64,000 nt of DNA from Blepharisma japonicum (taxonomy: Eukaryota > Ciliophora > Heterotrichea > Heterotrichida > Blepharismidae), in assembly GCA_949751835.1 (NCBI GenBank), contig CATKHK010000022.1:434001-498000 (forward strand), in the 5' to 3' direction. The notes beneath the pieces are model-generated. The model had not been told where the DNA came from. It did no database searches and saw nothing but the letters and a program-made list of their open reading frames with translations. How positions within the stretch are numbered: position 1 is the stretch's first letter; each line of letters starts with the position of its first letter. Positions 1,914 to 39,590 of the stretch are shown here, piece after piece. Both the position numbers and the translations under genes were made by a program.

Positions 1914-4900
1914 ATGTTGAGAAATCATATTAATATGAATGCTGACAATAATGAGTACGAAGAGATGTTCAATACACGAAGAAGGGCCAAACCAATGGCT
2001 AGTATCCACACAAATAAAGAGTATAAAACTCAAGTAAAAGCTCATAAAGCCAGGAGTAAATCATTTGTGTGAGCGAATCCAGTTGACTACAATGAGCAAG
2101 AAAAGAAAGAGGAGAAAACACTCTTTCTTTGCATAATGCTGATGAACCGTGACAGAATTGTTATTAGAATCGGGAAAAAAAGTACTGTAAGATTTGTAAT
2201 TGCCACTGCCTTAAGGAAAATCCAGGTCAGAATCATGTATCCTAATGCAAAACCTGACAATTTTGAATTGATACTTGCAGCAACAAAAACAGCTGAGCCT
2301 CTGCCTGGGTATTATCAGATTTATACATTATGCAAAATAGGATTCTGGACTAAACCAGATTGCTATTCGCAATATCCTTTGCTGATTTTACAGAAAAAGT
2401 CAGAAGCACCCTCAAAAATTCTAAAAATCCCTGAATTACTTACAGGGTATAATGATTCTCTGATTGGAAACAACTCTGATTGATGCAGCCACAGCGATGA
2501 AGTTAGTGCATTTAGGGCAAAATACACCGAAAATCCTGCATTCAAAGAAATCAGCTCAAAAAATGCTTTAGGCAAATATCCTCAATTTATAGACACTGCT
2601 TATGATGCCAAAATATATAGCAAAAAAATGATGATAAGCATATCTTACCCAGGTCATCCTTTATCTAACACAATAATAGAGCTTAATCATACTATGAAGC
2701 TGGAACATGTTTTGGAAGAAGTTCAAAAAAAATATTTTGTGTTGCAAAAGGTCTCGATAGATATAGATTCGCTTATTTTGAAATTTAGAGGAACAAATGA
2801 ATACATATATGACAGGAATGTCAGAATGTATGATATTGATGGAATCAGGGAGGCTTCTCAAAAAAACACAATTCCAGAGCTGGAGCTGAAAGTTAAGCCA
2901 GATGATCTGAGCGTAGATGAAATTTCAGTTGAATGTCCTCCAACACCTACTTTTTCGAGCTCAACCAACTGTGAGGATGAGCTTAGAAAAGAAGAAATTT
3001 CAGAAAAAGAAATCAAACAAGTTCTTGATAAGAGCCAGTTCCAAAGAAGAGCCCTGACTTTTCAAATCATGGGAAACAAAAATACTGAGACTAAAAGTGC
3101 AAAAAGACCACAAACACTTCCAGTTCTAAGAATAAGCAGAAAAGAGAAGAGATTTTCAGTATTGCAAACGCTTTCTTCTTCCCAAAATAGAGCATTAGAG
3201 CCGCTTAGCATTATTGATGTAAGGCATCTTCATACTAAATTTCGTGTAAAAATACTAGGAATTCAAAACTTGAAAATGTACAGCCTAGACGAAGAGAGCC
3301 AGTTGCCACTAGTCAGACTTCACCCAACTTGCATCAGAGTTGAAGCTTCTCTTTATACAGGCTGCTCTCCACTAGATTCAGAAATGATAATTACATCTAT
3401 AGGTTTATCCTGTAAAGACATCAATCACCATTTTAACGAAAACATCAGATGAGGGGAATGGTCTTATTTTTCACTTGCATACTCACAGCTGCCTCTTGCA
3501 GCATGCATAAAATTTGTGGTGAAGTGCTGAGTCACTTTCAAAGAAGGGAAAGGGCCAAAAGAATGCATTCTAGGCTGGGTAAATTTCAGAATTTTTGGAT
3601 ATGACAGAGGGCTTCAAACGGGGATTCATCGACTTGGCTTATTTCCTTATTATAGCGTTGCTGATCCTACTGGTTCAACTATTCAGAATAAAGATGCAGA
3701 TGCATCTCAATTGTTTATTGAACTCGACCATTTCATAGTACCTGTGGTATTTGGAGAAGACTCAGACTCTGTATTCTGTCTTGACGATTTTCTTGCTGAT
3801 CAACAATTGGGTATCCACCCATCAGACGAAAGTGAGCTATTCAGAATCTTGCAGGAGTCACCACTTTATAAAATGAGTGACGCTGAAAAAGAGCTTGTAT
3901 GAAAATATCGGGCATATTTATCAAGAAACAAAAATGCGCTTCCTAAACTGCTGCTTAGTGTAAAGTGATGTGATTCCCAAGCAGTCAGAGATGTTTACCA
4001 TATTTTAGATCTCTGTGAAAAGCCTGATTCTGTGATTGCAATGGAATTGCTGGATGGAAAATATGCGGATTCTAAGTTAAGAGAATTCGCAGTAAATGCT
4101 TTGGAAAGACTTACTAATAGTGAGCTGCATCAAATTTTGATCCAATTGGTTCAAGCTTTGAAGTTTGAAGCATTCCATGACTCAGCACTTTCTAGGTTTC
4201 TTCTATCAAGAGCTCTTAAATGCCCAGAAAGTATTGGCCATACCTTTTTCTGACTGCTAAGAAGCGAAATGAACGATCCTTATTACAAAGAAAGATTCGG
4301 CTTGCTACTTGAGCAATATTTAAGAAAATGTGGAGGTCACAGAAACTCACTGATATGAGAAGACCATCTAATCAAAAGTCTTGAGCAAATTGCATGGTAT
4401 GTTCAAGCGAGCCAGTGTAAGCGTGCAGAAGTTTTAATCTATCTTCAAGACCAATTAAATATGCTAAACCATGAACTTCCAGAATTTTACTCGATACCCT
4501 ACAACTCTAAAATAATTGTGAAAAAAATAAAATGGGAAGAATGCAAATTCATGAAATCCAAGAAAAAGCCACTTTATATTGTGTTTGAAAATGCAGATCC
4601 ATTGAATGACACTTATCATCTTTTATTTAAAGTTGGAGATGATATGAGACAGGACATGCTGACTCTACAAGTTCTTAGAGTTATGGAAAACTTATGACTA
4701 AAGGAGGGACTCGACTTAGGAATGAGTTTGTATACTACATTGGCTTTGGGAAATAATGTTGGGATAATGGAAGTTGTAAGAAATTCAGAAACACTAGCAG
4801 GGATCCAAAAATGGGGAGGAGGAAATATCGGCGCTTTGTATGATAAAATTCTATTTCAATGACTAAAAACTCATGACTATCCTAATTTTCAAGAAAATTT

Positions 4901-5381
4901 TATAAAAAGCTGCTCTGGATATTGTGTTGCAACTTATGTGCTGGGAATTGCGGATAGGCATAATGACAATATTATGGTGAGAAATACTGGGCATTTCTTT
5001 CATATTGATTTTGGGCATTTCCTTGGGCATTTTAAGAAAAAGCTTGGGATCAAAAGAGAAACAGCTCCATTTGCATTTACTCCAGATATGAGATATGCAA
5101 TGGGAGGGAAGAAAAGTCCTGGCTTTGAAAGTTTCAAAAAGAAATGTGTGCGTGCTTATAATATTCTTCGAAAAAACAGAAATTTGTTGATTAGTTTATT
5201 CTCCTTGATGCTTTGCTCAGGTATTCAAGAACTAAGTCGAAAAGATTTAGAATATCTCAATAAAACACTGATAGATATATCTGATGACAAAGCAGAAAAA
5301 CTATTCCGAAGCTTAATTAAGAAAAGCTTGAACGACCCAATGACAAGAATAAACTTCTCAATTCATATATTGGCTAATTAA
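1914..5381 (+). CDS. Class I-like phosphatidylinositol 3-kinase catalytic subunit (1155 aa)
   Basis: It should phosphorylate phosphoinositides at the 3-position at membranes. One uninterrupted frame with several TGA codons read as Trp. An N-terminal segment (about 60-160) sits where p110 has its adaptor-binding domain. A Ras-binding-like domain follows (about 239-320, with LILKFRGTNEYIYDRN like p110), then C2 (about 430-600), helical PIK (about 650-840) and kinase (about 850-1155). The kinase shows GDDMRQD (about 907-913), the catalytic loop with Asp1014 in DRHNDN, and the DFG Asp1032 in HIDFGHFLGH. The activation segment KKKLGIKRETAPF matches class I enzymes, which use PI(4,5)P2. No regulatory subunit gene is nearby. 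Class assignment rests on motif resemblance only. Confidence 0.92.
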
Positions 5382-6694: not shown

Positions 6695-8284
6695 ATGGTT
6701 AAGAAGCGAAAGAGCAAAAAATCCTTCAAGGAAGTTCAAGTTGCATCCAACTACATTGAAACAACAGATCTTATTGACCCCTGAATTGAAAGAACTCGTG
6801 ATCAAATTTTGCATGTCTCTAAATGACGCCAAATACGTATAAGCACTTCTGAAGAAGATAAAACTAGTTACCCAGAAGGATATCCCTATGAATATATCCT
6901 AGACTTCATTGCAGGTGAGTCTGATACTGTTGAAAATCCTCTCCCAGTAAGTGAAGCAGAAGAATTCGCTATCAAAGCTGATGAATTGTTAACAGAATTT
7001 TCTTCAAAAGCCCCAGAGTATGACCTCAACGACAGTCTCTTGAATTACAAACTTGATAAAGAAGTCACAATTGGCCAGATGCTGGATGCAATAAAAATTT
7101 CACCATATCAATACGAGTTTCAAACATATCTTGAGCAAAACCAATGAAATACTATAAATACTATAAAGATCAAGCCTAAAGAAGAAGATCTCATTATAGA
7201 AACCATTGATCATCTCAAAAGAGGCTTATCTCTTAAGGAGACCACTAATGAAATGAAAGGCAGAGTTTCCTATGAGAAAGTCAAAGACATTTATAAAAAT
7301 TACAAAATTTATGGAGAAAAATATGTCAGAAAAGTCAAAAGAAAACTTACCCCTGCATTAAAGCCTGAACATTTGCAATTTCTTAAAGAAATATCTGAAG
7401 ACCCCAGAAATACAGTTTTATCAGGGAGGGAAAGAAAACTATTATTGTGCAACCATTTTGGAATAAGAATTGGAACTGATCATGTAAGGCAAGCTTTAAA
7501 AGAAATGGGCTACTCTATTAAAAGAATTAGAACTTTTGTTCCAGAAGCCGACAGAGTTTCCCATAAAAATGCCAGATGCAGAGTTGCTCAACAATTAATC
7601 CTTCTTCAACAGAGCGGAAAAGAATTAGTCAGCATTGATGAATGCCAAGTAAATAGAGGAGAAACAGCGCATTATGGGTGGGCAAAAAAAGGTCAAAAAG
7701 CTCTAAATATTAACGGATTCAAAGGAAAGCCATTACAAATTATTACAGCAGTAAGATCGTGTGGGTTACTTGGATATATAATTCGGCCCAAAAAAATTGA
7801 TCAGTTTGGCTACAAGCATTTTCTAGGATTAATTTTTGGGAAGTTGAAAGAAATTGATCCTACCAATTATAAAGACAGATTTTTTTTATTTATGGACAAT
7901 GCATCAGCACATAAAACAAAGTTAGTCAAGGATTACATAGAAACTCAAGGAATAACAGTACTTTGCAATGCCCCAATGACTCCACAACTAAATCCTATAG
8001 AGTATATCTTTTCTATGTTTAAATGAAATTTGAGAAGGATGCCGATGAGTAATGATGAAGCTTTGATTGAATATATTTATGATGCATTTAAAAGGATCAG
8101 GCCAAGACATATTTATAATGCCTATATCCACTCTATAAGATCTTATAAAGCTTCGCTGAGATATGAGCAATTGCATGATGCAAGAGGATACAACAAAATA
8201 GACGCAAAAATTAAATTTTCTGGAAAACATATAAAAGCTTTGATCAATTTTGATAAGCTTAACACGAAAAAGCAAGAAGATTAA
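6695..8284 (+). CDS. DD34E transposase, IS630/Tc1-mariner superfamily (529 aa)
   Basis: Complete single-exon frame with TGA as Trp and ATG 6695. The C-terminal half is a DDE_3-type integrase fold. The catalytic triad is visible: Asp315 in SIDECQ, Asp401 in LFMDNASAH and Glu436 in NPIEY, with 34 residues between the second Asp and the Glu. The typical IS630-family KKGQK stretch lies after the first Asp. Residues about 165-285 look like a paired helix-turn-helix DNA-binding region. The first 160 residues are an acidic extension I do not recognise. I found no terminal inverted repeats or TA-flanked ends in the 200-300 nt on either side. It sits between kelch paralogues. The intact triad and the host code suggest a living or domesticated gene rather than debris. 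Confidence 0.9.
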
Positions 8285-12003: not shown

Positions 12004-13503
12004 ATGGGTAACATATGTAGCCAAACTCCTGTAGCTCCTGCAGCTCCACAGCCAACTATAACAGTACACCGAAGGATTTTATCAGCTGCTGACATCGTCC
12101 CTTCTCCTATGAATTTTGTTCAAGAAAATCTTCAATCTTTCTTTTCAATCTATCGATTACAATCAAATCCAATTGGATCTGGAATGTATGGAGAGATCCG
12201 TCTTTGCGAGCATCTCAGAACTGGGGACATTAGAGCTGTAAAAATCATTTCAAAGGCTGGGCTACCTCAATCTGTTATAAAAAATCGCAGTGTTTTAAAT
12301 GAAGTTAACATCATGAAAACACTAGATCATCCAAATATTTTGCGAATTTATGAATATTTCGAGGATAGAAGCAACTACTATTTGGTTATGGAATATTGCC
12401 AAGGAGGGGATTTATTTGATAAAGTGGTTAGTTTGACCAAATTTACTGAAAAGCAAGCAGCAAGGATTATGGAGCAGATTTTTTCTGGGTTGCAATATTT
12501 GCACAATAATGGAGTAACTCATAGAGACATGAAGCCAGAAAATATTGTGATTATCGATACGAATTCTGTTGAAGACTTAAATATAAAAATCATTGATTTT
12601 GATACAGCAACTTTTTTCACTGTGAATGGGCAGATACAAGGGTATTTTGGGACTCCGTGCTATATGGCTCCTGAAGTTTTCAAAGGAAAGTATAATGAGA
12701 AATGTGACTTATGAAGTTGTGGGGTAATTTTATATATTTTATTGTCAGGAAGTGCTCCATTTAACGGAAGCGATGACGATACAATAATGAAAGAAATTAA
12801 ATTGGGTAGATATGAAATGTCTGGCGAAAATTGAGATTCCATTTCTGATGATGCAAAAGATCTAATATCCAAGCTTCTCGTAAAAAATGAAGCTAAGAGA
12901 TTAAGTGCAGCTGAAGCATATAATCATCGCTGATGCCAAAAATTTCATGCAGAAAATATCAAATCTGTAGATATCACATATTCATTAGCCCGTATAAAAG
13001 CTTTCAGAGATTCTTCGAAGCTAAAGCAAGCAGTTCAGACCTTTATCTTGAGCCAAGTTATGTCTCCATCTGACCTCGATAAGTATAAAATCGCTTTTAA
13101 TGCTATGGATACTAATGGAGATGGAGTAATTTCAAGGCAAGAGCTCTATAACCAACTGAAAACTTCTATGACAGAAAATGAAGCACATATGGAAGCAGAC
13201 AGAATCATGAGGCTTGTGGATTCTAACAATAACGGAGTTATTGACTATACAGAATTCTTAAGAGCTACAGTTGAAAAAAGAAAAATGCTGACAAAAGAAA
13301 ATTTAAATAAGGCTTTCGTAATGTTTGATAAAGATGAATCTGGGGTAATTGAAATTAATGAACTAAAGGAGTGGCTAGTAGGAGATGCACATATAGACGA
13401 AAATATAATAAAAGAACTAATGAAGGAGTTCGATAAAAATTCTGATGGATGTATCGATCTATCAGAATTCGAAGAATTAGTTCATAGCGTTAGCAATAAT
13501 TAA
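12004..13503 (+). CDS. Calcium-dependent protein kinase, CDPK (499 aa)
   Basis: N-terminus MGNICSQ fits N-myristoylation at Gly2, with Cys5 a candidate palmitoylation site, so membrane attachment is likely. The kinase domain (about 51-320) has a glycine loop IGSGMYGEI, Lys80, HRDMKPEN (173-180) and YMAPE. The metal-binding DFG is DFD at 198-200, an unusual change. An autoinhibitory junction follows (about 320-360), then four EF hands beginning with DTNGDG (369), DSNNNG, DKDESG and DKNSDG, all with usable calcium ligands. TGA codons encode conserved Trp, including the one after KCDL. Single exon, stop TAA. The DFD may lower activity or change metal use; the rest of the active site is intact. 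Confidence 0.93.
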
Positions 13504-26383: not shown

Positions 26384-27910
26384 ATGGTTTTAAATTGCAC
26401 CACATTTTACAATCCACAATTGTTTAGATATAAATTTATTAAGCTAATGTTTACAACGTCAAGGAGATTTTTTGCTACTAAGATATTTAACTCGTCTGCT
26501 GAGGCGGTGGCTGATCTCAAAAGTGGGATGGCCTTAATGATTTCTGGCTTTGGACTATGTGGAGTTCCTGAGAATTTACTGAGGGCCATCCATCACCTGA
26601 AAATCAATAACCTAAAACTAATCACTAACACTTCAGGGACCAATGAATTTGGTCCTGGACTTCTTATCAAGGACAAAATGGCGTCTAGTATCCATTGCTC
26701 ATATTTAGGGGGAAATGAAACATTGGAAAATCAGTATTTAAATGGTGAAATTGAGCTTGATTTAATTCCTCAAGGATCTTTAGCTGAAAGGCTAAGGGCA
26801 GGAGCTTGCGGAATATCTGCATTTTATACCCACACTGGAGCTGGCAGTCTCGTTGAAGAAGGCGGATTCCCAATGAAATTCGGCCCAGGAGGAAAAACAG
26901 TCGAAAAAGTATCTGCTCCTAGAGAAGTTAGGATTTGGGGAGGCAAAAAATATTTGCTTGAGAGAGCTCTCAAAGGAGATATCGGACTTATTAAGGCTTG
27001 GAAAGCTGATACTGAAGGGAACTTAATCTACAGAAAAACAGCAAGAAATTTTAACCCTGACATCGCAGGGGCTTCCAAAATAACTATTGCAGAAGTTGAA
27101 GAAATAGTCCCAGCAGGAACCTTTGACCCAGACCAGGTTCACACTCCTGGTATTTTTGTTCAGAGGCTTGTTAAAGGAGAATATTTTGAAAAGCCAATTG
27201 AAAGGCTTGCCCTTAATACTGGTGATAAAATACAGCTTCCTGGCACTCCAGAACAGATTAGGAAGAGAGAAAGGATTGCTAAAAGAGTTTCAAAAGAAAT
27301 TAAGGACGGGATGTATGTGAATCTAGGTATTGGTATGCCGACAATGGTTCCAAACTACTTGCCAAAAGATATTAAAATCGTCCTGCATGGAGAAAACGGA
27401 CTTTTAGGGATCGGGCCATATCCTAAGCCAGGCGAACAAGACTCTGACGTAATTAATGCTGGCAAAGAAACTATTACAATGGCAACAGGCTCTTCTGTAT
27501 TTCAAAGTAGCATGAGTTTCGCTATAGTTCGTGGTGACCATCTTGATCTAACCATTCTTGGTGGACTTCAAGTTTCACAAGATGGCGATCTCGCCAATTG
27601 GATCGTCCCTGGCAAAATGGTGAAAGGCATGGGAGGTGCCATGGATCTCGTTGACAGCCACTCTAAATGCATCGTTTGTATGGAGCATACATCAAAAGGT
27701 GCTCCCAAAATTCTCAAAAAATGCTCTCTTCCACTCACAGGTAAAAAAGTTGTAAGGATGCTTGTGACTGAGTGTGGAGTGTTCGAGTTCAGAAGAGACA
27801 CTGGGATGACTCTTGTAGAAATCGCTTCAGATATCACTTTGGATAAACTTAAGGAGATTACTGGAGCTACCTTCTTTATTGCATCTGACTTAAAGAAAAT
27901 GCAAGATTAA
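26384..27910 (+). CDS. OXCT1: Succinyl-CoA:3-ketoacid CoA transferase (508 aa)
   Basis: Mitochondrial enzyme of ketone-body use, moving CoA from succinyl-CoA to acetoacetate. Fused A and B subunits are visible: A part with MISGFGLCGVPENLL, LITNTSGTNEFGPG and GAGSLVEEGGFP; B part with YVNLGIGMPTMVPNYL, the active-site Glu337 in LHGENGLLGIGPYP, and GGLQVSQDGDLANW. A linker sits near 275-295. Two starts are possible: ATG 26384, or ATG 26447, which begins MFTTSRRFFATKIF, a convincing mitochondrial presequence; I think the second is more likely the used one and give the longer span. Single exon. Full length for the family. Confidence 0.94.
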   Translation: MVLNCTTFYNPQLFRYKFIKLMFTTSRRFFATKIFNSSAEAVADLKSGMALMISGFGLCGVPENLLRAIHHLKINNLKLITNTSGTNEFGPGLLIKDKMASSIHCSYLGGNETLENQYLNGEIELDLIPQGSLAERLRAGACGISAFYTHTGAGSLVEEGGFPMKFGPGGKTVEKVSAPREVRIWGGKKYLLERALKGDIGLIKAWKADTEGNLIYRKTARNFNPDIAGASKITIAEVEEIVPAGTFDPDQVHTPGIFVQRLVKGEYFEKPIERLALNTGDKIQLPGTPEQIRKRERIAKRVSKEIKDGMYVNLGIGMPTMVPNYLPKDIKIVLHGENGLLGIGPYPKPGEQDSDVINAGKETITMATGSSVFQSSMSFAIVRGDHLDLTILGGLQVSQDGDLANWIVPGKMVKGMGGAMDLVDSHSKCIVCMEHTSKGAPKILKKCSLPLTGKKVVRMLVTECGVFEFRRDTGMTLVEIASDITLDKLKEITGATFFIASDLKKMQD

Positions 27911-27972: not shown

Positions 27973-30168
27973 TTACCAATCTATAGTGTTGTGAGTTCCG
28001 TCACAAAATGGCTTATTCTTAGTATGCTTGCACCCACACAAATAGTAAGTTTTCGTTTCTTCTGCCATAAAGCCAATAGGCAGAAATTGAGTTCCTTGGT
28101 GTGAACCATCACAAAATGGCTGTTTTTTAGATCTTCCACAGTCACAGTAATAATATGGCCTCGATTGCTCAAGATTTACTTCATAAGGACTTCGGCAAGG
28201 CCTTAGCCTTGGCTGATGAAAAAGAATCGCTCTATTCCAATTTTCAGCGAGACTTGTTAATCCTTTGATGAAATCTAAATAAAAATTACTGTTATCTGGC
28301 TTCCCTGAAGAGTTGAAAACGTACTCAAAATCAATTAATTTCACTTGGATTTTGTGAGGGCTCACAACATAAAGCACTGAGCTTGTGAAGAATAATTTTG
28401 AGTGCTGAGTTTTGAACCAATCTCTGAGACTTTGAGTTTCAGAAAGAAGAGAATTTAAGATGTCCTTGCAGTAAGAATCATTTTTTCTGGCTAATTTGGC
28501 AAGCTGTTCAAATGCATTATCTTGATTTATGTGGGAATATCCTTGGTCTTTATTTCAAGCCTCTGCAACCACTCCTCCATTCCTAACTAAAACCCCTGAA
28601 ATCTTCCAGCTAAGGGTGCCAGAGGTAGAAGTAACAACCTTATTTTGTTTCCTTCGCTGCTTTTCAACACTATGTGTCGGTGCCCATGTTATTTTTCCTA
28701 TTTTGCAATCCAAAATGCTTGGGTTTTGGCACTGGAATAACAAATTTTCAATAACAATATAGTTTTTGTTGGAAATAGTTTCCACTCCATAGAATTTAGG
28801 AAGGAACTTTCTAAGCTCAATCAATTTTTGATCATGGCAATTCTCATTATAAACTTCTTTGTAAAAGTCAATTTCATTTTTACTTGTTGCTTTTAGCAAT
28901 TTATCCCCTCTAAAAATAAATCTATCTTTATGCCCAGCAACTATATCGGTTGCCTCTTGAGCAGCTGGCTCTCTTAATCTTTCCCATATTTTAATAACAT
29001 TTTGTAGACCTTCTATTACATTGGTATCTTCTACACCATTCGCATCCATAGCATGAGCAAAATCAATATACCTTACCTGGTATTTTTGGTTTTTGCCGCA
29101 TACATAAAACACTGAACTTGCCACAAAATGCTTTACTTTTTGTCTTTGAAACCAATCCAATATTTTTTTGGTCCCTTCAATAAATGCTTCAATTGCATCC
29201 TTATTCACTTCTCCCTTATTGGTCACTATTTTTGCGAATTGTTCATGAATGTTATTTTCATTGATTCCGAAAAACCCTTCATTTTTGGCCCAAGATTCAA
29301 CTTTTTTACCTTCTTCATCTTTTACTACAACTCCAGAAATTCTAAACCCCAAAGATCCTGTCGTTGTCCCTTTATTTTTCGCTTCTTGGTTTTTTTTGGT
29401 CTCTTCTGTATGGTGAGGAGTTCATGTAATTCTTCCTAGCTTACAATCCATGATGCTTGGATTTTTATAGTCTGTTAATAAGTTTTCCATTGAGATATAT
29501 CTTTCTCCGTGCCTTTCCTCGGCTCCATAAAACTCGGGAGCATACTTTCTCATCTCAATCATTAAAGGATCATTTTGAGATGGGCTGTAAAGCCATTCAA
29601 AAAAGTCGAATTCTCCTTTTTTAGCCTTTTTTAGTAGCTTATTACCTTCAAAAATAAGTGTTCCTGCATGACCTCCTGCTTGACCTTCTGCTGGAAGCTT
29701 ATTTTCTTCTTTGTTTTCTGTGTGCTTTGAAACTGACTGTGCAGTTAGCTCAGGTTCTTTGATTTGCTTCTCGGCTTCTTTATGAAATTCTTTGGATTCA
29801 GGCTTTGGAATTTCTTGAGCTTTTTTTTGCGGTTCTGGGTTATTTTCTGGGAGTGGTATTTTTGGATTTTCGTGGACTTTTTGAGAGGATGGGGAAGGAT
29901 CAACTTTTTTGATCGGTTCCAACGGCTTTTCTTCTTTCGCAGGTTTTTGTTGAGATTCTTGAGGCTTTACTTGAGGATTGGTAGGATTTGATTTTGAGGA
30001 AGTTACAGATGGGGTTGGCTTGTTTTGAGGTCCTACTGCGGAAGGTTCGGTCTTTTTATTCGCAGGAGTGTTAGAGGAACCAGTGTTATGCGATAATTTG
30101 ACTTCTTCTTGATGAGATTTTGTCGGAGTTACATCTTTTAAAGCTTTTTTTGAGATCCCACAACCCAT
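27973..30168 (-). CDS. Two inositol polyphosphate kinase domains fused to a CISD3-like double CDGSH domain (731 aa)
   Basis: One open frame, no intron, two in-frame TGA as Trp. MGCGISKK fits N-myristoylation plus palmitoylation at Cys3. Residues about 10-165 are a Pro/Lys/Gln-rich linker. The first kinase domain (about 166-400) has PSIMDCKLG (237-245), SSVFYV and IDF (368-370). The second (about 410-645) has PSILDCKIG (483-491), SSVLYV and IDF (612-614). Both keep the PxxxDxKxG and IDF motifs of the IPK family, which phosphorylates inositol phosphates or InsP6. The end (about 660-731) carries two CDGSH motifs, CDC...PFCDGSH (675-690) and CGC...PFCDGTH (711-726), each with three Cys and one His for a 2Fe-2S cluster, laid out as in CISD3. 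No ATG lies between kinase 2 and the first CDGSH motif, so a separate gene is unlikely. I know of no such fusion. Confidence 0.88.
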
Positions 30169-30639: not shown

Positions 30640-31467
30640 ATGGAAGGCAACGATAAAGAATTTCGGCAATCATTTTCACTTCCTGTATTCATTTACAGAC
30701 AAAAAGAAGGAAGATCAATATACTCAATGAATATCCCCAAAATTATGTTTTGGTTTTCTGGCCTCATGACAATATTAGTTTATGCAAATTTGCTTCTAGC
30801 TTGCTTGACAAATTTTTCATGCTCCACTTTTTTGCCTACGCTGACTTATATTGGCTGCTTCAGAGGACATGACAGGATCTTCATTGTTTCTTGCACTTTT
30901 TTTGCACTTGTTCTTGTTCTAATGTACACAGGGGCTTATTATCATTTTGGATCGTCCTTACCAGATTGAAAAAGACTTGCTCTATTATATTTAGGAGTTA
31001 TTTCCTGCATTACATTACCTTTTATAAGCCTCACAGATGAAGTTAACAGTGTGCATATAATTCCTTTTGAGCCTGTCTATAGCTTTTTATCAGTTTGCTT
31101 TGTCCTTGTCAATCTTGCTTGGGGATCTCTTGTTTACTCTTTGATATTGAAATCACGCAGCACTTTCAATGTCCAAGAGAGGCGCTGGTTCTTTATTTTG
31201 ACTCTATTTTTAGGACTATTTGCATTTTTATCGCTAATTACACTTATTGAATGGAATTGGGCATACTCAACCAGCTCTAATGACTTTATAAATGAAAACG
31301 CTGAAGCCGTCTGTGAATGGATTTTGGTCACAATTGCGATATTTTTACCGCCAATCTTTTGCCAATTTTTCAGAGGATTTATGCTAAGTTTTGCGGTAAG
31401 TTCTGGAAGATCGAGATCTGAAGAGAAAGAAGCAAAAGATGTTGAGCTAGCTACCCTTAATCCTTAA
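30640..31467 (+). CDS. Six-TM membrane protein, Frag1/DRAM/Sfk1-like (275 aa)
   Basis: Multi-pass protein with about six hydrophobic helices starting at MFWFSGLMTILVYANLLLAC, then LPTLTYIGCFRGHDRIFIVSCTFFAL, VISCITLPF and so on, and a short charged cytoplasmic tail (SSGRSRSEEKEAKDVELA). The pattern PTLTYIGCF...R.F near the first loop and the six-helix layout resemble the Frag1/DRAM/Sfk1 family, linked to GPI-anchor remodelling or lysosomes, but I place it there only tentatively. One TGA read as Trp joins the two halves. Its stop is 7 nt from that of the DHHC gene on the other strand. Confidence 0.75.
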
Positions 31468-31474
31468 TTAATAT

Positions 31475-32524
31475 CTATGGACTTCCGAGTAATCCTACAT
31501 GATGCGGCTCAGCCTTGATCCTTGACGAAGAATCCAAAGTGCTTTCAAATTCTTTACGAGTGCCTTCTAAACTATTTCCCTGCCTAACCGGCGAAGCTAA
31601 CCTCTCTCGGCTTGCAGCCACTCCAGATCCAGTGAGCCTTGAGCTCCTTCTTGCTTCATTTTCGTTTGCAGGGATCTCTTCGTCGAAATTTTGAATTACT
31701 TCGTCATTCCATATAACTCCATCCCCGACTGGCTTCCCTGATCTTCCGGTCATCGGAAATGGCCAAAGCCAAGGATTTCTTCCAAAGACTTGAATCCAGT
31801 TTCTCTTGTATCCTTTATTATACACGATTAAATTTGGAAGATTTTGTTTATCCATGTTCTCTATAGTGGTTATATTGGTAAAAATCAGCTTGATATGGAA
31901 CTTGAGAAACATGAACATAACTCCATTAAGCAAGCAATTCAATAAGTAAGCTGAGAATAAAACCGCCTCTTTATATGCATAAATATCTCTTTTCTCAATG
32001 ATTTCTTTTACGCTTGCATAGACTGTTGGAAACAGAGTAATAGTAATTAGGGTCGTCGAAATCAAAACATAGACAAGAAGCAAAATGAAAAATTTCCGAT
32101 TGTAAAACCCTACGCAATTATTGATCCAAGCTGTCTAAATATTACGGCAGTGATGATCCATATTCAATACACATCTGTTGCACGCTGAACAGTGATGAGA
32201 TCTTTCCGGCTTGAAAACATGGCACATTAAGCAGTAGCGCCTTCTTTTTTGCTCTGAATCGCCCATGTAAAACCCTCATAGTGGTGGGACAACTCCTGGA
32301 TCAGTTAGCATTGCTCTGAAGAAGCATCAAAGCAGCATAAATAATAGATAGTGGAAAATGAGCAAAAATAAAAAGATTTTGGGTTCTGATTCAAAATTAC
32401 CTTTATATCGTTCGTGAAATGTATGGACTACGTTGTAGTAAATGAATGATATGACGAACAGAACGAACAAAGCGAAAAAGTTCCCTAGCAGCTTGGAGAG
32501 TGTGAGAGGTGCTGTTTTTGACAT
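31475..32524 (-). CDS. DHHC palmitoyltransferase (344 aa)
   Basis: Integral S-acyltransferase. Two TM helices near the N-terminus ([35 protein letters not shown]), then the cysteine-rich DHHC domain [34 protein letters not shown], two more TM helices and the TTxE motif (NITTIEN) followed by a basic/Arg-rich C-terminus. A 15-nt intron (32131-32145) falls inside the DHHC-PWINN signature; without splicing the catalytic motif is lost, so the splice is certain. Stop is TAG. It is the first of two DHHC genes in the window, and near a protein with a predicted palmitoylated N-terminus. Confidence 0.93.
32131..32145 (-). other. 15-nt intron inside the DHHC motif
   Basis: Minus-strand gtaatatttagacag, between DHHC and PWINN; splicing is required for the active site. 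Confidence 0.95.
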
Positions 32525-37985: not shown

Positions 37986-39590
37986 CTATCCTAATAAAGG
38001 TTTTCTTAGCGCTTTCTCATGCTCACTTGCAACCCATGTGAACCTTATTTCATTGTCCATTGGCTCATTTACTTCATACCCAGTTCCATATGACCCTTGC
38101 TTATCCGAATTGCAGCACATTTCTTTCCAGTTCTTGAATACGCTTTTTCTGTCTACCATTGAATCTGAATCCGACCTATCAAGTGTCAGCGCAATTCTCG
38201 CTGATCTTGAATATCTCTCATTGGTTGTTGTATTCGTCCAGAAATTTCTGGTCTGCACTGTAAATAACAGTAATACAGGAGCGATAAAGCCGAAAGAAAT
38301 TAGAAATAAAAATACGCATATGATTTGCTGCGCAATTTCTGGAATTTCTATGATAAAGTAATAGTCGGAGTAAAAAAATGCTAAAGCATCAAAAATGGCG
38401 TTGGAAATAAGGACTAAAAGAGTCATGATAAGGAACAAATAAAAAAGGCCCAAGTTGCGGGCTCCAATGCAATTATTGATCCAAGGGCAGTGATGGTCGA
38501 ATTTCTCCACACAAGTATCACAGGTTTGGCAGTGTCTTGATCTTGGAGGCCTCTTAATTATGCATTCAGGACAAATTTGAATACTATCATATTCCTCACA
38601 GAGAGATAGCAGCGTGTTTTTTCTATTGTTCTTCAAATATCCAGGGTCTTTATTGCAAATAATCAGTAAAAACACTAATTCTATTGCAGATATCGCGATA
38701 TAGTAGCTGCTTCTGTAAATAAAGAGAATGTTCCCTGCAATTCCAAGTATCAAAAGTGCCACAAACAAAGCCAAAAGACCTCTTTTGTATCTAACTGGCC
38801 GCTGAGGAGGTTTAATTCCACAAAGTGACCAGAGCCCAGGTTCATTAAGCAAAGAAATAATTGTCCCATGATTAAGTTCCTTTGCAATCATCATCGGAGT
38901 TTGGCCTCTTTTGTCTTTGGTTTCGGTGCTTGCTCCTTTTAGTAGTAAATTCCTGACACATCGAGCATTTCCAGAAATAGTTGCCAAATGAAGTGGAGTT
39001 TGCCCTTCATCATCAACTGCGTTCACTTCTACAGGTCAGGACAGCAGAACTGACATTGCGACTTCACATCCCTGATTAGCAGCTATATGCAGAGGTGAAG
39101 CTCCTTTTTTGTCCTTCAAGTTATAAGTGATCCCCATGCTTTCAAACAAGGCCAGCATATTCATTTGGTCACCTTGCGCTGCGATATGCATGATATTTAG
39201 CCCTTGATTTGTCACTGTTTTCGGGTTTGCCCCTAACTTCAGAAGTAATTTTGCTAATTTCTACGTAATTTTTACCATATTTCCTCTAAATGCTGCCAAT
39301 TGAATACAAGTAAACCCTTCAGTTGAGGGCTGATTAATTCAGCTTTTGATAATGGTATCTGACTGGTCTGGGAAAAACTCCTGCACGTATCTTATCAAGA
39401 ATTTTACTAGAGAGGTCATGCTGTTAAGTGCGCAAATGTGAAGCGCAGTATACCCATCTTTTCCTATATGTATTGCAGGGTTTGTAGCATTTTCTTTCAT
39501 ATAAGCGTATAAGTCAGCTACCTGGATATTCCCATGGGTTAGGTCATTTATTCGACTGATGAAGGGGTTTTGATTTTCTGAGGAATCCAT
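37986..39590 (-). CDS. Ankyrin-repeat DHHC palmitoyltransferase (529 aa)
   Basis: HIP14/ZDHHC17-type layout. ATG 39590; a 15-nt intron (39261-39275) removes a TAG inside the ankyrin region. About six ankyrin repeats (about 35-245), for example [46 protein letters not shown] and [14 protein letters not shown], then two TM helices, the cysteine-rich domain with [15 protein letters not shown] and [14 protein letters not shown], two further TM helices and the TTxE motif (NTTTNERYS). The cytoplasmic tail is polar. Ankyrin repeats usually select substrates. Stop is TAG. Confidence 0.94.
39261..39275 (-). other. 15-nt intron in the ankyrin-DHHC gene
   Basis: Minus-strand gtaaaaattacgtag, between FRGNM and KLAKLLLK; it lies between codons. 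Confidence 0.93.

Follow-up and report, generated by a model that had tools for sequence, protein, structure and literature searches.

A predicted Blepharisma protein combining two inositol polyphosphate kinase domains with a tandem CDGSH iron–sulfur module

We analyzed a 64-kb stretch of Blepharisma japonicum DNA, here called the window, and focused on one gene of its minus strand. With TGA read as Trp, the frame at 27973-30168 stays open through all 731 codons and encodes, in order, the start MGCGISKK, a leader of ~150 residues, a first and a second inositol polyphosphate kinase (IPK) domain (kinase 1 and kinase 2), a short linker and two CDGSH motifs, the second of which ends five residues from the C-terminus. 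The features of the gene are as follows.

27973..30168 (−): complete gene of 731 codons before splicing, TGA read as Trp; 726 aa once an inferred intron is removed
30145..30168 (−): MGCGISKK, a start resembling N-myristoylation/palmitoylation signals (G2, C3, S6, K7-K8), recognized by eye
29692..30144 (−): low-complexity leader rich in Lys, Pro and Glu, ~150 aa
28963..29688 (−): IPK domain 1, IPMK-like, with PSIMDCKLG, ASSVFYV and IDFAH
29434-29460 (−): PSIMDCKLG of kinase 1
within 29050-29070 (−): IDF of kinase 1
28210..28962 (−): IPK domain 2 and linker towards the CDGSH part, with PSILDCKIG, TSSVLYV and IDFEY; fast-evolving in the window copy
28696-28722 (−): PSILDCKIG of kinase 2
within 28318-28338 (−): IDF of kinase 2
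28275..28289 (−): inferred 15-nt intron GTAATTTTTATTTAG, phase 1, in frame and stop-free, with homologous introns in L020, L024, L025 and L026
27976..28209 (−): end of the linker and tandem CDGSH module, type 6/CISD3-like
28099..28146 (−): CDGSH motif 1, CDCGRSKKQPFCDGSH, with all four ligand positions occupied (C, C, C, H)
27991..28038 (−): CDGSH motif 2, CGCKHTKNKPFCDGTH, with all four ligand positions occupied

Pfam searches of the encoded protein returned two stretches of IPK (PF03770; E = 1.3e-61, 208.3 bits, cut-off 22.2) and two of zf-CDGSH (PF09360; E = 1.8e-18), the latter likewise above its curated cut-off. An earlier sequence-only reading had proposed a single minus-strand frame at this position with two IPK domains and two complete CDGSH motifs, and the TGA-as-Trp frame, the paired Pfam matches above their cut-offs and the motif positions all bear this out. 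It had further claimed that no ATG separates the modules. In the spliced protein, in-frame Met residues occur at 1, 203, 206, 227, 240, 374 and 696. M374 falls in the closing part of kinase 1, and M696 separates the first CDGSH motif from the second; with no Met in between, no separate two-motif CDGSH protein could start at an in-frame ATG.

An Rfam search of the 64-kb window gave nothing above the gathering score. Other frames of the window include a phosphatidylinositol 3-kinase with C2, accessory (PIK) and catalytic domains (1914-5381, +), ~25 kb from the fusion gene; a stop-free DDE_3 transposase frame of 529 aa (6695-8284, +); and, by eye, a calcium-dependent protein kinase-like gene with another acylation-type start, MGNICSQ (12004-13503, +). 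A frame for a Coenzyme A transferase (26384-27910, +), with PF01144 matching in two places, is convergent with the fusion gene; 62 bases separate its end from the stop codon of that gene. Two frames for DHHC palmitoyltransferases, one with ankyrin repeats, lie near the MGC-type gene at 31370-32266 (−) and 37986-39191 (−), the former read with code 6 rather than with TGA as Trp.

The integrity of the fused frame depends on the genetic code. Under ciliate code 6 (TAA/TAG as Gln, TGA as stop), it would be broken at its TGA codons, leaving a first piece of 248 aa, and this reading was rejected. W249 and W538 are encoded by TGA, and both aligned positions are TGG in a paralogue on contig C18 described below, which supports the TGA-as-Trp code. 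The related Blepharisma stoltei is likewise reported to use UGA for Trp and to carry introns mostly of 15 and 16 bp (PMC9942806).

A short intron probably interrupts kinase 2. Because GTAATTTTTATTTAG is stop-free and 15 nt long, it leaves the reading frame unbroken and is invisible in it. Introns of 15 nt occupy the same place in four paralogues: GTAATTTCTAAATAG in the C18 paralogue and GTAATTTCTAAGTAG in a gene on contig C5, each with an in-frame TAA that requires removal, and GTAAGAGCTATTTAG and GTAAGCGATATTTAG in single-domain IPK genes on C128 and C85, respectively. Splicing out GTAATTTTTATTTAG yields DNNFIKGL in kinase 2, matching DTNVIEGL of kinase 1. Across the window, the spacing of GTAA...TAG peaks at exactly 15 nt (15 cases, compared to one to eight at any other length between 11 and 23), while 30 runs of a Markov model averaged 6.5 such 15-nt matches and reached 12 at most. 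With chance matches this common, a lone match is weak, and the case for the intron rests on the position shared among paralogues. The mature protein would thus probably comprise 726 aa, and the sequence-only reading, which had described a gene without introns, was probably wrong on this point.

We next consider whether the fusion is genuine. The C18 paralogue (C18:484741-486591) aligns to residues 120-731 of the window protein at 57% identity and has the same layout, with an MGCGGSKK start, two IPK stretches and two CDGSH stretches. That a paralogue so diverged contains the same parts indicates that the architecture did not arise by chance. Substitution rates estimated by a counting method for the two genes were dN 0.18 and dS 1.74 for kinase 1, dN 0.48 and dS 2.66 for kinase 2 and dN 0.27 and dS 3.32 for the CDGSH part; dN is far below dS in all three, with dS near or past saturation (past it in leader and linker), making the dN/dS ratios rough. 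Kinase 2 is 45% identical between the genes, and the linker leading from it to the CDGSH part is 27% identical over 15 codons, a value that does not support its conservation.

An artefact, in which two neighboring genes only seem joined because of misassembly, an overlooked stop or the wrong code, could draw on the dependence of the frame on TGA as Trp and of the gene model on an inferred intron. A frameshift or mistaken join is strongly opposed by the same layout on another contig at 57% identity. The TGA codons aligned with TGG and the code and intron lengths of B. stoltei (PMC9942806) also speak against an artefact, which we regard as very improbable. As far as sequence can show, the IPK–CDGSH fusion is real, and the genome contains at least two predicted genes with the IPK–IPK–CDGSH layout.

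Both kinases retain the D-x-K-x-G and IDF signatures, in the form D-C-K-x-G plus IDF. The middle residue is thus Cys in each, compared to the printed form D[I/V]K[I/L]G in a paper on the viral kinase TvIPK that assigns transition-state stabilization to the Lys and Mg coordination to the Asp (PMC10897400). PDB searches ranked IPMK first for kinase 1 (86.2 bits, with 66.1 for IP6K and 46.7 for IP3K) and for kinase 2 (71.6, 52.6 and 28.1 bits, respectively), and IPMK was also the best PDB relative of kinase 2 in the C18 paralogue. The top entry for both window kinases was 5w2g, which we take to be human IPMK. Judged by these PDB matches, both kinases appear IPMK-like.

A tree of ten IPK domains of this genome and part of 5w2g grouped the kinase 1 domains of the window and C18 genes (98/97) and joined this pair next to a single-domain gene on C82 (94/99), while the two kinase 2 domains had no supported grouping. 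The kinase 2 domain of the window gene has a branch length of 1.55, compared to 0.24 for its C18 counterpart and 0.19-0.21 for the kinase 1 domains. In the alignment, IDFAH of kinase 1 is changed to IDFEY in kinase 2, and the TTTGSLGFRISG stretch of kinase 1 is changed to TSTSGTLSWKISG. Window kinase 2 may therefore be a specialized or non-catalytic lobe. The long branch and the two altered motifs would fit a pseudokinase or regulatory lobe, leaving kinase 1 alone catalytic. Against such a loss stand three features still present in kinase 2, namely D-x-K-x-G, IDF and an N-lobe Lys identified in the alignment (LLK), to which we assigned its role by eye; the Tyr found at the same place (IDFSY) in the single-domain IPK genes on C85 and C128; and a dN still well below dS. 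We rate this possibility somewhat short of an even chance, and since it fits both readings of the CDGSH module discussed below, its probability does not add to those of the other alternatives.

The CDGSH part contains two stretches that fit C-x-C-x2-[ST]-x3-P-x-C-[DN]-G-[SAT]-H, at residues 675-690 and 711-726 in unspliced numbering, with 20 residues between them. PDB searches matched it to 3tbn (E = 1.4e-22), which we take to be MmCISD, and to 6avj, a CDGSH protein 3 (E = 1.3e-16). CDGSH-type proteins are also chains of entries 6z1p and 7w5z, presumably ciliate mitoribosome and respiratory-complex structures. Both motifs have the 3Cys:1His ligand pattern in the window and C18 proteins and in two free-standing proteins from contigs C52 and C1. 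Tandem CDGSH motifs ~20 residues apart define the type 6 CISD class, which includes human and Magnetospirillum proteins (PMC3174974), and place the module in this class by the published scheme. The CISD3-like double CDGSH assignment of the sequence-only reading accordingly holds in its spacing, full ligand sets and 3tbn and 6avj matches. A strict CISD3 orthologue, that is, a small free-standing matrix protein, was rejected on the basis of the 731-codon multidomain frame with its MGCG start.

The two free-standing tandem CDGSH genes from C52 and C1 encode proteins whose starts suggest acylation rather than a mitochondrial location.

L027:1501-1842 (−): free-standing tandem CDGSH gene of C52, starting MGCFSSKKK
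L029:1393-1722 (+): free-standing tandem CDGSH gene of C1, starting MGCCAS

By tree path, the C52 and C1 rows are the nearest to each fused CDGSH module, ahead of the other fused module. The CDGSH trees kept 74 columns and left most forks unresolved. The tree used for the approximately unbiased (AU) test took every third of the prokaryotic and viral rows of usable length (29 of 85) and omitted the divergent genome rows C50, C31 and C22:210k, which were present in the other CDGSH tree; C26, which resembles C50, was in neither. In this weakly resolved setting, the fused modules probably derive from acylation-type CDGSH proteins of the cytosol. Their grouping as a clade was neither shown nor rejected (AU test, p = 0.479), so two separate CDGSH fusions onto the same kind of kinase pair may have occurred; a single origin of both fusions is supported for kinase 1 only (98/97).

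For N-terminal acylation, the usual rule calls for Gly2 and Cys3 together with a small sixth residue. By eye, both MGCGISKK of the window protein and MGCGGSKK of the C18 paralogue follow it, in agreement with the acylation-like N-terminus noted in the sequence-only reading, the modification itself being a prediction. An MGCG.SKK start is common to these two genes and to a third on contig C6 (L036:1501-2985; G000:C6:425937-), which encodes by Pfam a zinc-dependent alcohol dehydrogenase behind the same MGCG leader. Residues 1-96 of the window protein match the start of this dehydrogenase gene with 51% identity (E = 2.6e-12), a shuffle z of 15.1 for the leaders and 72% identical DNA over 86 nt. 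The leader of the C18 paralogue matches less well (shuffle z 3.9). Unrelated proteins thus seem to have a single acylation-type leader in common.

To place the fusion among its relatives, we searched the genome (45.2 Mb, 224 contigs). It contains at least seven IPK gene loci (at least ten domain matches), two of which also carry CDGSH, and at least ten loci with a PF09360 match (at least 18 matches), of which two carry IPK; two more divergent CDGSH-like loci, on C50 and C26, came from protein search only. One further gene (L022:748-2232, −) has two tandem IPK domains with neither CDGSH nor an MGC leader. Another, C22:208k (L028:1192-1734), has an RIIa-like stretch at residues 49-79 ahead of its CDGSH pair; this match scores 18.1 bits (E = 0.0021), short of the 22.4-bit cut-off, and a fusion of an RIIa dimerization/docking domain with CDGSH is possible. 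Among prokaryotes and viruses, we surveyed 91 CDGSH loci, comprising the best 80 of 584 relatives in prokaryotic contigs and 11 in viral contigs. A profile built from the IPK domains of this genome and part of 5w2g matched none of the 91. Long fusions would have been detectable there, since 23 of the 91 loci have CDGSH frames of >160 aa from stop to stop, 21 of them with 358-652 aa. This negative result applies to prokaryotes and viruses. Pattern-based scans of viral contigs revealed no confirmed relative of the whole window protein or of its kinase.

Taken jointly, these data are best read as a genuine fused gene for an IPMK-type kinase that is tethered to a membrane and would depend on its [2Fe-2S] module for stability or activity, a reading that we regard as evenly balanced. 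Reasoning from family knowledge, myristate and palmitate would anchor the protein at the cytosolic face of a membrane, where kinase 1 would phosphorylate soluble inositol phosphates and possibly, like mammalian IPMK, a phosphoinositide lipid. The C-terminal module would carry two [2Fe-2S] clusters, and these could, as the least certain step, act as an iron-, redox- or NO-dependent switch of stability or conformation. The fused kinase would be kept while clusters are present, and their loss would leave it unfolded, altered or degraded. Window kinase 2, itself probably specialized or partly degraded, may act beside the CDGSH part as a lobe for regulation or scaffolding.

The biochemistry of CISD3 makes such redox or iron gating plausible by analogy. 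CISD3 treated with iron chelators loses its clusters and becomes unstructured, and its cellular level drops; it gives a −31 mV signal and is destabilized by NO (PMC10937110). In cells, it is indifferent to H2O2 stress, while oxidized CISD3 is H2O2-sensitive in vitro (PMC10937110). Given the response to iron and NO and the cellular indifference to H2O2, iron- or NO-dependent stability or conformation would be the most likely form of control over the fused kinase, ahead of a plain peroxide switch. A narrower version, in which an iron- or NO-sensing inositol phosphate kinase belongs to a wider cytosolic, membrane-attached CISD3-like set in this ciliate and its fused clusters decide whether the membrane-bound IPMK-type enzyme is kept or active, is proposed tentatively and is rather unlikely in this full form. 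The fast divergence of kinase 2 (45% identity) and linker (27%) between the two genes runs counter to a conserved allosteric interface.

In a real fusion, the CDGSH part might also be no switch at all, serving instead in localization or partner docking or as an incidental cluster carrier, with kinase output independent of the clusters. The CDGSH units of this genome have varied N-terminal parts (the MGC leaders of C52 and C1 and the below-cut-off RIIa-like stretch of C22:208k), and CDGSH-type proteins are chains of the 6z1p and 7w5z entries, in keeping with such a role. Retention of all eight ligand positions in both fusions is harder to explain, as mere docking would not obviously need them. 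An argument against any control by the clusters comes from Asp1, whose [2Fe-2S] cluster is present in vivo and redox-inactive and has no effect on pyrophosphatase activity (PMC8038993). On balance, we consider a cluster-independent kinase a doubtful but serious alternative.

Information could also flow in reverse, with inositol phosphates made or bound by the kinases controlling cluster transfer or electron transfer by the CDGSH module. NEET proteins transfer clusters in vitro (PMC10937110), and the enzyme part would then be a ligand sensor. The catalytic motifs kept in kinase 1 argue against this role, as does the lack of a precedent in the literature searched, and we regard it as improbable.

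The narrower version, an iron- or NO-sensing kinase at the membrane, would if true provide a direct link within one protein between iron–sulfur status and inositol phosphate signaling. Signaling targets of NEET-type [2Fe-2S] proteins are largely open. That such a natural fusion occurs in both of these diverged genes suggests that CDGSH iron–sulfur proteins and inositol phosphate synthesis are functionally linked, and it offers a compact protein in which to examine this. If this link is real, iron–sulfur or redox input to inositol phosphate signaling could exist elsewhere through separate proteins.

While both domain families are well known, we found no report of their combination in one chain in the literature reachable to us, which largely excluded subscription papers, bioRxiv and eukaryotic sequence databases. 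CDGSH and inositol polyphosphate kinase were named together only in a lung-cancer gene model, and the accessible parts of a survey of eukaryotic inositol phosphate kinases (PMC8024741) and of a 2026 review (PMC13384419) mention no such fusion. Literature on the light behavior of Blepharisma contained nothing supporting a link to the fusion gene. The suggestion of the sequence-only reading that no protein with this architecture has been described therefore stands within the reachable literature, with other ciliates outside the search, and we regard the protein as a provisionally new combination of known domains.

Several known systems share parts of this architecture. With IPMK/IPK2 (PF03770), the window protein has in common both kinase domains, the top match 5w2g and the D-x-K-x-G and IDF motifs, although its kinases read D-C-K-x-G where 5w2g has D-V-K-I-G. 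Mammalian IPMK has dual inositol and lipid kinase activity (PMC12467090); unlike IPMK, the window protein has tandem kinases, an acylation-like leader and a C-terminal CDGSH module. Terrestrivirus TvIPK shares the IPK family and the D-x-K-x-G and DF motifs with the window kinases but is a minimal IPK, in contrast to the multidomain window protein (PMC10897400). Human CISD3/MiNT and 3tbn share two CDGSH motifs, the 20-residue gap and all ligand positions with the module, yet human CISD3 is soluble, has 127 aa and resides in the mitochondrial matrix (PMC10937110), whereas the CDGSH module of the window belongs to a large protein. Precedents for CDGSH fusions exist in type 5 CISDs, which combine type 6 with a glutamate synthase FMN-binding domain, and in type 7 CISDs, in which CDGSH occurs with DUF1271 (PMC3174974). 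These partner domains differ from the IPK of the window, and the accessible text of this classification lists no IPK partner among CDGSH fusions (PMC3174974). The one iron–sulfur precedent in this pathway is Schizosaccharomyces pombe Asp1 (PPIP5K/Vip1), an inositol (pyro)phosphate enzyme with a [2Fe-2S] cluster, as predicted for the window protein with its two clusters; the Asp1 cluster, however, sits on cysteines of the pyrophosphatase domain, and its kinase family differs from the IPK family found here (PMC8038993).
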